This document shows, piece after piece, positions 11,776-15,108 of a stretch of DNA of 18,966 nt; position 1 is the first letter of the stretch; the number at the start of each line of letters is the position of its first letter. The DNA is from an uncultured Micrococcales bacterium. Its GTDB lineage: Bacteria > Actinomycetota > Actinomycetes > Actinomycetales > Microbacteriaceae. The stretch covers positions 1-18,966 of the forward strand of contig CAIPNT010000138.1 of assembly GCA_903866485.1 (NCBI GenBank). The letters are read 5' to 3'. The notes under the pieces were generated by a model. The model was not told the origin of the DNA. It was given only the letters and a program-made list of their open reading frames with translations, and made no database searches. Both the position numbers and the translations under genes were made by a program.

Positions 11776-11804
11776 GTTTTAGACAGCCTTGCATGTTCAT
11801 TTAG

Positions 11805-11866
11805 TTATCCACAGTGTCTTCACTTTGTCTGGCGTTTGGATTAGGTTAAATCTGGGGTTATCCCCA
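11805..11866. promoter_or_regulatory. DnaA-box-like pair in the SDR/secreted-protein intergenic region
   Basis: TTATCCACA at 11805-11813 is a perfect consensus DnaA box, and TTATCCCCA at 11858-11866, same direction, differs by one base; the second is also the right part of a small inverted repeat TGGGG-TTAT-CCCCA (11853-11866). The 125-base region carries both divergent promoters. The gyrB-gyrA genes nearby suggest closeness to oriC, but this is not oriC itself: too few boxes and no dnaA. A titration or regulatory role is inference. Confidence 0.4.
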
Positions 11867-11888
11867 AATTAATTCAAGGGGTTGAGTT

Positions 11889-13976
11889 ATGAAAATGTTC
11901 GGTCGCCGCGTGATGGGTGCGATTGTCGCCGCGGTTTTTGCCTTTGCCCTGCAGATTGCCGGGCCGGTTGCCTTGCCAAGCTCGTTGGTCGCTGCAGCCT
12001 CGGCCGATGCCCCGCTTGCTGGGCTCACCCCTGACCTGAGCCTGGCCGGTTACTCTGGCGTCACCGGTTTTGTGGTTCACGTCAATAACTATGATCCGGC
12101 CTATTCGTGGTCCGTGTACGCTCCACCAGGATTAACGATGGTAGTTCGAGCACCGAGCGGAACTAACACGGTTTACTCCATTGGCATCCGAGGCCTTGCC
12201 GCCGACTCATCGGCCACCGTCACCGTAACCACAAGCCGGTCTGGTTATGCCGACGCAAGCGCGTCGATCATTGGTTACTCGCGCAACACCGGCCTGACCC
12301 CTGCGTTTGGTTCGGTCACGTCAACCTTTGGTGGGTTTTCGACTCAAATCACCAATTATTCATCCAGTTATTCGTGGGCGGTTTCATCAACTCGCGGCTC
12401 GGCCCAAATCGACAGCAACGGTCTGGTCACGGTGAGCAATCTCTATGGCGGCCAAGCCGCTTCGCTTGTGGTGACAACCAGCCGCTCGGATAGCACCACG
12501 GTCAGTGCCACCATCGACGGCTCGGCCCTCGTGCCAAGCCCAGCCCTTGTGTCTGAATATTCGCTGGTCGCGGTCACCCAAGACGCCGTCAGCTTGCAAA
12601 TAACAAATTATGACCCTGCATTCACCTGGTCGGTAGATTCGGGTGGCGATGGCACCGCATCGATTGACGACGCCGGCCTAATCACAATCAGCGACCTCTA
12701 TGACGGTGAGCAAATCAACCTTCACGTTCTAACTAGTCGCTACGGCTACTTATCGAACGATAAAGTTCTGTACCTAGCCTCGCTGATTCACCCGCAAACA
12801 CCGCAGTTGGGCACAGTAACCCCAACCACCGATGGCTTTACGCTGTCTCTAGAAAACTACGACCCCGCATACGACTGGGCTGTCACCAGCGACACCGGCA
12901 CAGCCACCATCGACTCGGGTGTGATCACAGTTGTCGGCCTAACCCATGGCCAAGTTGCCAACGTAACCGTGGTTACCACGGCGCCAGGCACCGAAACCGG
13001 AAACGCCACCTTTAGCGGTCAGGCTTTGAGCGCCAACTTCACGCCGATTATTGGTGCACCGACACGAAGCGTCAACAGTTATAGCGTGCAAATTACCAAC
13101 TATGACCAAGCATTCACCTGGTCGGTTTACACCGAATCTGCCATCGGACAGGCAGCAATCAGCAATTCTGGTCTCATAACGGTCTCAAATTTGGCCGATA
13201 GTCAAGAGGCAATCGTTCACGTGATGGCCACTCGCCTCACATTCAATGACGCCGATGTTTCAATTACCTCAAGCGCCCTGAGTGCTGCTTTGAACCCAAC
13301 TTTTACCGCTTCAACCCCAACCACCGACGGATTCACCACCCAAATCAATAACTTTGATTCGGCATTCAACTGTTCGATTGTCACAAGCGCTGGGGTCGGC
13401 AGCCTGTCATCCAATGGTTTTGTGAGCGTGACTGGGCTTAGCCCCGACGCCTCGTCAACCGCTTCGGTCACTTGTCAGCGCGAGGGTTATCGCGACGGGT
13501 TGGGCAGCGTCACCGGCCAAGCGCTTTCGTCGCCGGTCACAACACAAGATGATTCCGTTGCCCGCGCTGCCGCACAAGCCCAAGCTGCTGCACAGGCTCA
13601 AGCTGCCGCGCAAGCACAGGCTGCAGCCGAAGCGGCTGCCAAGGCAGCTGCCGACGCAAAGGCTGCTGCGGACGCCAAAGCCGCGGCGGATGCCAAAGCT
13701 GCGGCAGATGCAAAGGCAGCGGCGGACGCTAAAGCGGCGGCGGACGCTAAAGCCGCGGCAGACGCGAAGAAGGCTCAGGATTCAAGAACCATTGCCGCGA
13801 TTATGCAAAAGCCACAGTCGGTGACGGCAAAAGTCATTTCAAAGCTCACCGCCGCTCAGCTGAAGACCATCCCGCCTACTGTCTTGGCTCGTTTGTCATC
13901 AAAGGCCATTGCCGCGCTTAGACCGGCTCAACTTGCACTGCTGAGCAAGGCCCAACGCAACGCCCTGCGCAGATAG
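11889..13976 (+). CDS. Secreted repeat protein: six Ig-like repeats, Ala-rich hexad helix, C-terminal octad repeats
   Basis: A 695-residue protein of unknown function. Residues 1-40 look like a Sec signal peptide (MKMFGRR, hydrophobic core to about 35, then SADAPLA). Six degenerate repeats of 77-86 residues follow (about 46-131, 136-212, 217-298, 303-379, 384-464, 468-546), each with an N(Y/F)(D/S)xx(Y/F)xW(S/A)V strand (starting 67, 156, 240, 323, 404, 488), a G-x-A-x-I-(D/S)-x-x-G-L-(I/V)-T-V stretch and VxVxTSRxGY, as in bacterial Ig-like surface modules. Residues 559-628 form three AAAQAQ and seven KAAADA hexads. Residues 643-690 form six octads. The only cysteines are C494 and C529, both in repeat six. 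There is no LPXTG or membrane anchor. AAGGGG 8 bases before the ATG fixes the start. Probably an exported surface protein or adhesin. Confidence 0.85.
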   Translation: MKMFGRRVMGAIVAAVFAFALQIAGPVALPSSLVAAASADAPLAGLTPDLSLAGYSGVTGFVVHVNNYDPAYSWSVYAPPGLTMVVRAPSGTNTVYSIGIRGLAADSSATVTVTTSRSGYADASASIIGYSRNTGLTPAFGSVTSTFGGFSTQITNYSSSYSWAVSSTRGSAQIDSNGLVTVSNLYGGQAASLVVTTSRSDSTTVSATIDGSALVPSPALVSEYSLVAVTQDAVSLQITNYDPAFTWSVDSGGDGTASIDDAGLITISDLYDGEQINLHVLTSRYGYLSNDKVLYLASLIHPQTPQLGTVTPTTDGFTLSLENYDPAYDWAVTSDTGTATIDSGVITVVGLTHGQVANVTVVTTAPGTETGNATFSGQALSANFTPIIGAPTRSVNSYSVQITNYDQAFTWSVYTESAIGQAAISNSGLITVSNLADSQEAIVHVMATRLTFNDADVSITSSALSAALNPTFTASTPTTDGFTTQINNFDSAFNCSIVTSAGVGSLSSNGFVSVTGLSPDASSTASVTCQREGYRDGLGSVTGQALSSPVTTQDDSVARAAAQAQAAAQAQAAAQAQAAAEAAAKAAADAKAAADAKAAADAKAAADAKAAADAKAAADAKAAADAKKAQDSRTIAAIMQKPQSVTAKVISKLTAAQLKTIPPTVLARLSSKAIAALRPAQLALLSKAQRNALRR
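13563..13772 (+). repeat. Hexad-coding tandem repeat (AAAQAQ x3, KAAADA x7)
   Basis: Within the secreted-protein gene, residues 559-628 repeat every six residues, so the DNA repeats every 18 bases. The copies use different synonymous codons (gcc/gct/gcg/gca, gac/gat, aaa/aag), which shows an old repeat kept for its protein sequence and not a fresh DNA expansion. The product should be a long straight helix or stalk between the Ig-like region and the C-terminal octads. Confidence 0.85.
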
Positions 13977-13983
13977 TCGCCAA

Positions 13984-14439
13984 CTAAACAGTCAGGTTAT
14001 AGACCGCAAGCGCTAGGCAGATCGGCATAAATAAGACCGGAACAAAACTCTCGGCTTGGCCAAGTTCACGGTATTTGGTTTTTGCTCGCCCCGATGAATA
14101 GCCCTTGAGATACTTCCACTCGAGGGTGAATGGTTGTTCGGGCAGCTTTTCTTCAAGCCTCGCGATGACTGACCACTTCGCGGCACTAAGTTGCCGATAG
14201 CTTGCAAGTTGCAACCACCAAACCAGATTGATCAAAAACCCAACGCCTAGAATCGCGATGCCGCCGAGACGGCCGATTGGCAAGTGGCCTTCGGTGATCA
14301 ACCCGCCTGCGGTGATCAAGGCCGAATCGGCAGTCAGAAAGAATGCATTGGCTACACCCCTGCGGGCCGAGATTCGATCTGCCATCTCAACGGCTAACCG
14401 ATAAAACTCAAAAGTCTGGTCTTCTGTGGTTCGCCTCAT
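13984..14439 (-). CDS. Small RipA-like membrane protein, partner of the TIR-like gene
   Basis: A 151-residue protein with three hydrophobic segments (about 29-48, 57-79 and 131-150) and a charged cytoplasmic loop of about 50 residues between the second and third (KWSVIARLEEKLPEQPF, EWKYLKGYSSGRAK). The layout and the LxxYRQLSAAKWxVIxxLE region resemble small proteins annotated as RipA-family octameric membrane proteins (after Francisella RipA); this is recognition from memory, moderate certainty. The ATG at 14439 overlaps the stop of the TIR-like gene as ATGA and is preceded by GGGGG six bases upstream, so it must be made together with its partner; the ATG at 14481 is less likely. It would be the membrane arm of a two-gene signalling or defence module. 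The 3' end lies 7 bases from the convergent secreted-protein gene. Confidence 0.8.
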   Translation of the reverse strand: MRRTTEDQTFEFYRLAVEMADRISARRGVANAFFLTADSALITAGGLITEGHLPIGRLGGIAILGVGFLINLVWWLQLASYRQLSAAKWSVIARLEEKLPEQPFTLEWKYLKGYSSGRAKTKYRELGQAESFVPVLFMPICLALAVYNLTV

Positions 14440-14822
14440 CGTTCGCCCCCAATCAACAGCCTTAAGTTCGACCAGGTCCATTGATAGATTTTGTCCGACT
14501 CGCGCGCCGACCTAGGGGGTGTCACCGGCTGGTCGCTGTGACCGGCCAAAAGAATGTAAGGCACTCTCTCCTCGCGGGCAATTTCAATCTCCTCGGCCAC
14601 CCCGCTGGCTCTTGAAGTGTGTTGACCGCAAATCACAATCACAATGTCGCAGCGTCTGATTCGAAGTCTTGCCTTCTCACGCCAGTCACTCGAGGGCTCT
14701 TTGATTGAATGGTCAGCGATATTGAAGGGTGAATCTGGATGTCTGCTCTGCCCGACCAATGCCTCCTTCAGAAAGAAGTCGTTGTCATAGTCAAAGCTGA
14801 TAAATGCTCGTTTTAGAGCCAT
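14436..14822 (-). CDS. TIR-like (MTH538/DUF1863, ThsB-type) domain protein
   Basis: A 128-residue single-domain protein. It begins at once with KRAFISFDYDND (strand A and the following loop), followed by LVGQSRHPDSPFNI, a conserved W47 in SSDWREKARLRIRRCD, then strand D IVIVICGQHTSRASGVAEEIEIA (59-82), i.e. the T-x-x-S-x-x-V-x-x-E-I pattern of TIR-like domains; E78 is the best candidate for the catalytic glutamate. Such proteins include ThsB of Thoeris defence, which makes an NAD-derived signal on infection. No ThsA-like gene is beside it; the translationally coupled neighbour is a small membrane protein. The ATG at 14822 has GGGGGA 4-5 bases upstream; a TTG at 14843 is less likely. Enzyme activity is inferred, not shown. 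Confidence 0.85.
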   Translation of the reverse strand: MALKRAFISFDYDNDFFLKEALVGQSRHPDSPFNIADHSIKEPSSDWREKARLRIRRCDIVIVICGQHTSRASGVAEEIEIAREERVPYILLAGHSDQPVTPPRSARESDKIYQWTWSNLRLLIGGER

Positions 14823-14957
14823 GGTTTCCCCCGAATCCGGCAAAAGAGTGTTTTTGCGAGGCTACCAATCGCACTCAATCTTGCCCACGGGGGTAGCCGC
14901 TCAAGCGAACAATCGAAGCAAGATTCTTTAAATTTGTATTAATTGGCGAAGAAGCGA

Positions 14958-14973
14958 TTGCCTCGGGAGGCAA
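14958..14973. repeat. Small inverted repeat upstream of the TIR-like gene
   Basis: TTGCCTC-GG-GAGGCAA, 7-base arms with a 2-base centre. It lies between the tRNA terminator and the AT-rich stretch (14928-14945) that could hold the promoter of the TIR-like operon. Too short a loop for a good hairpin; could be an operator. No function can be assigned. Confidence 0.35.
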
Positions 14974-15001
14974 GAGCCTGCGGCGGCGAGTCGTCCAAAG
15001 C

Positions 15002-15029
15002 AAAAACGCCTCCCCGAAGGGAGGCGTTT
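15002..15029 (-). terminator. Rho-independent terminator of the tRNA operon
   Basis: On the minus strand AAACGCCTCCC-TTCG-GGGAGGCGTTT is a perfect 11-base-pair stem (15004-15014 with 15019-15029) closed by a UUCG tetraloop and ending in a run of five T. It lies 7 bases after the tRNA-Ala 3' end. The stem is symmetric enough to work weakly in the other direction as well. Confidence 0.9.
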
Positions 15030-15035
15030 CATTTG

Positions 15036-15108
15036 TGGAGACTAGGGGGGTCGAACCCCTGACCCCCTGCTTGCAAAGCAGGTGCTCTACCAACTGAGCT
15101 AAGTCCCC
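15036..15108 (-). tRNA. tRNA-Ala (anticodon UGC)
   Basis: A 73-base cloverleaf: acceptor stem GGGGACT / AGTCTCC containing the G3-U70 pair that identifies alanine tRNAs, D arm with AGCTCAGTTGGTAGAGC, anticodon stem CCTGC/GCAGG with loop TTTGCAA (anticodon UGC; complement at 15073-15075), and T loop GGTTCGA. The discriminator is A and CCA is not encoded (the next bases are CAAAT), so it must be added enzymatically, unlike the tRNA-Ile next to it. Confidence 0.97.

Follow-up and report, generated by a model that had tools for sequence, protein, structure and literature searches.

The window considered here is a stretch of 18,966 nucleotides (contig CAIPNT010000138.1) from an uncultured Micrococcales bacterium of the family Microbacteriaceae. 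In it, the gene of a small TIR protein overlaps that of a membrane protein of the Pfam family 8xMP. Such pairs recur in many bacteria and in haloarchaea, on chromosomes, plasmids and phage-like DNA. The pair looks like a little-described anti-virus device, which may damage the infected cell's own membrane. It is probably a mobile two-gene anti-phage module with a Thoeris-like logic, in which the TIR protein would cleave NAD with residue Glu78 and 8xMP would permeabilise the membrane. What is observed is the gene pair, the two families, a predicted TIR fold, the conservation of the glutamate, the recurrence of the pair and its patchy, mobile occurrence.

The gene pair

The elements of the pair are the following.

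14436..14822, minus strand: TIR gene, encoding a single-domain ThsB-type TIR protein of 128 residues with Glu78, a predicted NAD-processing enzyme
13984..14439, minus strand: 8xMP gene, encoding a PF24838 protein of 151 residues, a predicted membrane effector with three transmembrane (TM) segments
14436..14439, minus strand: ATGA start/stop overlap of the two genes

The TIR gene begins with an ATG at 14822 and has its stop codon at 14438-14436; the 8xMP gene begins with the ATG at 14439-14437 and ends at 13984. A first-pass annotation had proposed both open reading frames (ORFs), with these lengths and this overlap, and ribosome binding sites at both starts. The ORFs are present as proposed, and a G-rich, Shine-Dalgarno-like run precedes each start (GGGGGAAACCATG; GGGGGCGAACGATG). 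With the ATGA overlap, translational coupling would be expected. A simple scan for a promoter-like site found none. The pair is flanked upstream by a tRNA-Ala, as its nearest feature, and downstream by a gene that converges on it, so the operon consists of two genes in this genome. The claim that no other gene shares the operon is thus correct here but not in some relatives, where DUF7701 is a third gene.

The TIR protein

The TIR protein matches PF08937 (ThsB_TIR) with 33.3 bits (E 6.8e-8; cut-off 21.2). Its AlphaFold2 model, with a predicted local distance difference test score (pLDDT) of 92.5, has a ThsB-like fold with a glutamate in the catalytic position, so the likeness to ThsB noticed earlier holds in both profile and predicted fold. 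Glu78, singled out in the same annotation, is the glutamate kept across relatives, its position being invariant in 36 of the 36 aligned. PADLOC returns only weak ThsB/ThsA matches for this protein, and no NCBIfam model reaches its cut-off for either protein of the pair. Judged by profile scores, the matches to PF08937 and PF24838 are not due to chance. The TIR protein is probably a small immune-type enzyme that cuts NAD.

The membrane protein

The 151-residue protein matches PF24838 with 115.4 bits (E 2.2e-33; cut-off 30), a curated family that fits and to which it belongs. The family name states octamers, and an octameric form is taken from that name alone. The AlphaFold2 model, a monomer built from 46 sequences (pLDDT 89.5; predicted template modelling score 0.78), consists of helices at 5-49, 57-96, 103-113 and 120-150, the short one of which we read as lying outside the membrane. 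The hydrophobicity profile shows three peaks, of which two are strong and the third is weak. This fits three TM segments, as had been proposed from the sequence. Mean information per column is highest in the N-terminal helix (2.93) and in segment 79-130 (2.48), and is 1.6-1.8 in the TM segments. From charge and topology, both conserved parts would face the cytosol.

Searches by sequence gave no solved relative of the protein, and searches by fold gave no convincing one. Foldseek found no match at E <=0.001, and its VIA rows are generic helical bundles. One full-text search of the available literature on the families 8xMP and DUF7701 found no relevant paper.

Recurrence of the pair

Two genome samples were drawn independently of likeness to 8xMP. 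Among 150 genomes of the family, two have an 8xMP gene over the cut-off (the genome of the window and G111) and one more has a match below it. TIR is upstream of 8xMP in both of the former, with DUF7701 in between in G111. Among 396 genomes of the phylum, eight have 8xMP over the cut-off and four more match below. TIR lies upstream in four of the eight (the locus of the window, L025, L027 and L028); two (L026, L029) have no TIR within the 1.5 kb covered, and two weak members (L030, L031), unmatched by the profile made for this analysis, have no TIR recognised among the genes listed.

Genome contigs were also scanned with a profile built from four 8xMP proteins that have a TIR partner, a choice that biases the result. 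Among the best 80 of 131 relatives, 28 have a TIR on the same strand <=1.2 kb upstream. This number includes a locus with a fragmentary 8xMP, three in which the TIR is partial, and some identical copies. By phylum label, these are 16 of 29 non-Actinomycetota loci and 12 of 51 Actinomycetota loci. Pooling all sources and removing fragments and exact duplicates leaves 100 non-identical 8xMP proteins. Thirty-nine of these are TIR-linked (13 with DUF7701 <=1.5 kb away), 17 have DUF7701 and no TIR, and 44 have neither. Together with seven of seven further haloarchaeal plasmid loci, described below, the 39 bear out a recurrent adjacency.

The spacing of -4 seen here occurs in 21 of 43 TIR/8xMP rows, with starts picked automatically and duplicates included. 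TIR-linked rows come from 13 bacterial phyla and one haloarchaeal plasmid according to record labels, many of them of metagenome bins. They are scattered across a tree of 8xMP that is built on few columns and leaves many forks unresolved. TIR and 8xMP similarities co-vary over 36 pairs, with an r of 0.46 that none of 9999 permutations reached. This fits joint inheritance, by a statistic that ignores host phylogeny.

A remnant of Thoeris was considered as the principal explanation and rejected; the pair recurs in many phyla. A fused TIR-8xMP protein was likewise dropped as strong proof: locus L062 is the only fused ORF, a change of frame within the overlap creates it, and it retains a GTG at the 8xMP start.

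The distance between the genes can also be larger. At L117 (4640-7432) about 1.9 kb separates TIR and 8xMP, with toxin-antitoxin-like and transposase-like ORFs there by eye. At L120 a TIR-like protein is encoded downstream.

Plasmids, viral contigs and a variable slot

Twenty-three plasmid records match 8xMP, 15 of which also matched in another search. Neighbourhoods were viewed in 19 of the 23. The other four are a Helicobacter plasmid and three Leptolyngbya records, whose match is the same as in a Leptolyngbya record among the 19. TIR is the immediate upstream same-strand gene in 12 of the 19, including all seven haloarchaeal loci of the second set (7/7), which were confirmed with our own profiles. 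A Paracoccus plasmid, where TIR is followed by an 8xMP split in two, was left out of the TIR-linked count. On a conjugative Paenarthrobacter plasmid the pair lies <=2 kb from a TIR-caspase pair, and on a Polaromonas plasmid it adjoins a type I restriction subunit gene. At the Halorussus locus L159 (1303-2135) the annotation splits the gene that precedes 8xMP into two ORFs; on the sister plasmids L158, L160 and L161 it is annotated as a single TIR gene of 834 nt.

On viral contigs the pair occurs in four of five 8xMP loci. For instance, on a phage-type contig (L037) a RecT-like gene flanks it on one side and terminase/portal genes on the other, and at L036 a gene for phage DNA transposition is about 5 kb away. 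Two 8xMP queries gave no match in phage records, and the pair of L039 gave no nucleotide match in E. coli.

Within the genus, 8xMP was found in one of 60 genomes, that of the window (completeness reaches 90% or more in 20 of the 60). Here the pair occupies a variable slot.

11779..15022: variable slot from an SDR gene to tRNA-Ala, holding the pair and the gene of a repeat-rich protein
15035..15108, minus strand: tRNA-Ala (TGC), the edge of the slot

When the window is compared with relatives by BLAST, the place of 11779-15022 is taken by about 45 bp in G545 and G556 and by about 7.8 kb in G546. Across the genus (window; L143, L144, L147) the slot thus measures about 45 bp, about 3.2 kb or about 7.8 kb. 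Three proteins encoded in the slot of G546 score over their Pfam cut-offs: an integrase of phage type, an EcoRI-type adenine methylase and a GmrSD_N/HNH protein. A copy of the tRNA end was looked for on the far side of the slot and was not found. The other gene of the slot (11889-13976) encodes a 695-residue protein whose tail is Ala-rich, with AKAAAD repeats, and which matches no Pfam family. In 40 genus genomes it has a strong relative only in G567 (45% identity), besides two weak matches.

The setting of the pair is thus mobile and partly defence-like, with plasmids, viral contigs, a tRNA slot and restriction or defence neighbours. A comparison of flanking genes with PADLOC points the same way. 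The flanks of 19 TIR-8xMP loci (129 proteins, up to seven per locus) matched 314 models, including type I methylases, GajB and a DRT helicase, while those of 33 TIR-less actinobacterial 8xMP loci (99 proteins, three per locus) matched 17, the two sets differing in taxonomy. The figures count models rather than proteins, the flank genes were called with a crude script, the TIR-8xMP flanks include further TIR genes, and 30 proteins of 10 non-actinobacterial loci had been removed by hand from the TIR-less control beforehand. The contrast favours a defence setting and is only suggestive.

Other partners of 8xMP

A third gene, DUF7701 (PF24792), often lies near 8xMP, with or without TIR (L003, L027, L028, L048 and others). 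It is unmatched in the draft genome of the window, which is 67% complete, and its control gave no match anywhere either. In two Flavobacteriaceae loci, L087 (6000-7495) and L094 (5856-7420), a caspase gene lies directly upstream of 8xMP (PF00656, 60 and 58 bits) with no separate TIR gene between them. An OLD-type ATPase gene is upstream at L091. At L126 an FGE gene follows 8xMP, and the protein encoded after it matches VMAP-C and, below the threshold, TIR. On a Rhizobium plasmid (L130, 328-4435) the gene directly upstream encodes a protein annotated as NB-ARC, which has WD40 repeats and also a TIR-like stretch. Because of the caspase, OLD-type and FGE/VMAP-C neighbours, 8xMP can be seen as a shared downstream part.

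Comparison with known systems

Thoeris type II, which consists of a ThsB TIR and a TM-macro ThsA, likewise has a small TIR gene beside a small membrane effector gene. Its TIR product is reported to make TM-macro effectors oligomerise (PMC11204291; PMC12948488), and membrane perturbation has been proposed (PMC11204291). Unlike in type II, the partner here matches 8xMP alone and no Macro, so there is no adjacent TM-macro ThsA; a Macro match is also absent from the draft genome, with controls matched in 8 of 14. In type I (ThsB with SIR2-SLOG ThsA) the TIR fold and glutamate position resemble those modelled here, whereas the partner is SIR2-SLOG instead of 8xMP. No ThsA match was found among the scanned neighbour genes of the pair, and STALD is unmatched in the draft genome, its control being matched nowhere either. 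Type IV also combines TIR with one effector, which is a caspase-like protease rather than a membrane protein; no caspase was found in the scanned neighbour genes or the draft genome (controls matched in 1 of 14). By the available excerpts of their descriptions, then, the pair lacks the defining effectors of Thoeris I, II and IV. This bears out the earlier remark that no ThsA or macro gene is adjacent and, for these three types, that the layout does not match.

In the predicted TIR-SLATT systems, outlined in PMC9503650, a TIR gene likewise has a small TM protein as its neighbour, whose predicted role is the control of membrane permeability, and these systems too occur in phages. SLATT is described there as 2TM, whereas the 8xMP protein has three predicted TM segments. 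SLATT models gave no match to it up to E 1, and the two may still be distantly related. SLATT_5, searched for a comparison set, was found in 0 of 149 genomes, and its controls were matched nowhere either.

A survey of 12 TIR systems in E. coli is cited in PMC12847820. Among the literature matches listed, no abstract names TIR-8xMP. Both protein families and the general logic were already known; their combination would be the new element.

Mechanism and alternatives

By analogy with Thoeris type II (PMC11204291; PMC12948488) and the predicted TIR-SLATT systems (PMC9503650), as far as the excerpts describe them, infection would activate the TIR protein, which would then cleave NAD via Glu78. Its product, or the assembled TIR itself, would act on the cytosolic part of an inner-membrane 8xMP oligomer. 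8xMP would then permeabilise the membrane, and the infected cell and phage growth would be stopped. A diffusible NAD product is somewhat likelier than direct contact. That the TIR protein senses or signals and the membrane protein is the effector or scaffold was already suggested by the first-pass annotation. The recurrent adjacency and the conserved Glu78, on either of which this could have failed, agree with it, as do the likeness to ThsB and the mobile context; the NAD and effector steps are its putative part. From infection sensing through NAD chemistry, 8xMP activation and membrane damage to protection, we infer the course of events.

Several observations weigh against this mechanism. Sixty-one of the 100 non-identical 8xMP proteins have no adjacent TIR, and four of these (L055, L064, L066, L112) have hardly any upstream DNA covered. 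Many of the 61 are from Streptomyces, where DUF7701 is the partner or there is none, so an effector role of 8xMP is not strictly tied to TIR. A Pfam profile search found no nucleotide-binding domain of known type in 8xMP, which leaves a messenger without an identified receptor. Because 8xMP has no significant structural match, its fold gives pore formation no support. 8xMP matches no PADLOC model, and the fusion at L062 may be accidental.

The roles might be reversed, with the TIR protein killing by NAD depletion, as reported for some bacterial TIR effectors in part of PMC12847820, and 8xMP being its membrane anchor, sensor or inhibitor in a toxin-antitoxin-like arrangement. The fixed ratio that this needs would suit the ATGA coupling. 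Yet 8xMP also stands beside caspase, NB-ARC-annotated and OLD-type genes, which better suits a shared downstream part than a TIR-specific inhibitor, and the arrangement is unlikely. The missing ligand-binding domain and the co-variation of TIR and 8xMP would in turn agree with a pair that uses no messenger. The TIR protein would assemble on a phage component, much as ThsB is reported, in the same source, to bind a phage capsid protein, and directly cluster or open 8xMP, with the glutamate serving local NAD chemistry or folding. A glutamate identical in 36 of 36 relatives is stricter than a pure scaffold needs, and the probability of this version is low.

A function outside defence, in membrane-stress or envelope signalling, is the most improbable. 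Many actinobacterial 8xMP genes do stand alone or with DUF7701, and the 99 proteins near TIR-less copies matched just the 17 PADLOC models. The TIR-linked form, by contrast, is patchy and mobile (one of 60 genus genomes, plasmids, phage contigs and a tRNA slot).

The anti-phage module with NAD cleavage and membrane permeabilisation can be extended to a broader and distinctly more tentative proposal. TIR-8xMP may be a separate Thoeris-like type of bacteria and haloarchaea, in which an octameric channel lacking a known nucleotide-binding domain would sense the NAD product through its cytosolic helices. 8xMP would be a plug-in membrane effector that TIR, caspase, NB-ARC and OLD-type systems have in common, and a counterpart of SLATT.

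If the proposed function is true, TIR immunity gains a class of membrane effectors and a new way of reading TIR products. The system would be unusually small, with two genes in <0.9 kb, and would occur in bacteria and archaea. The families 8xMP and DUF7701 would gain a testable role.
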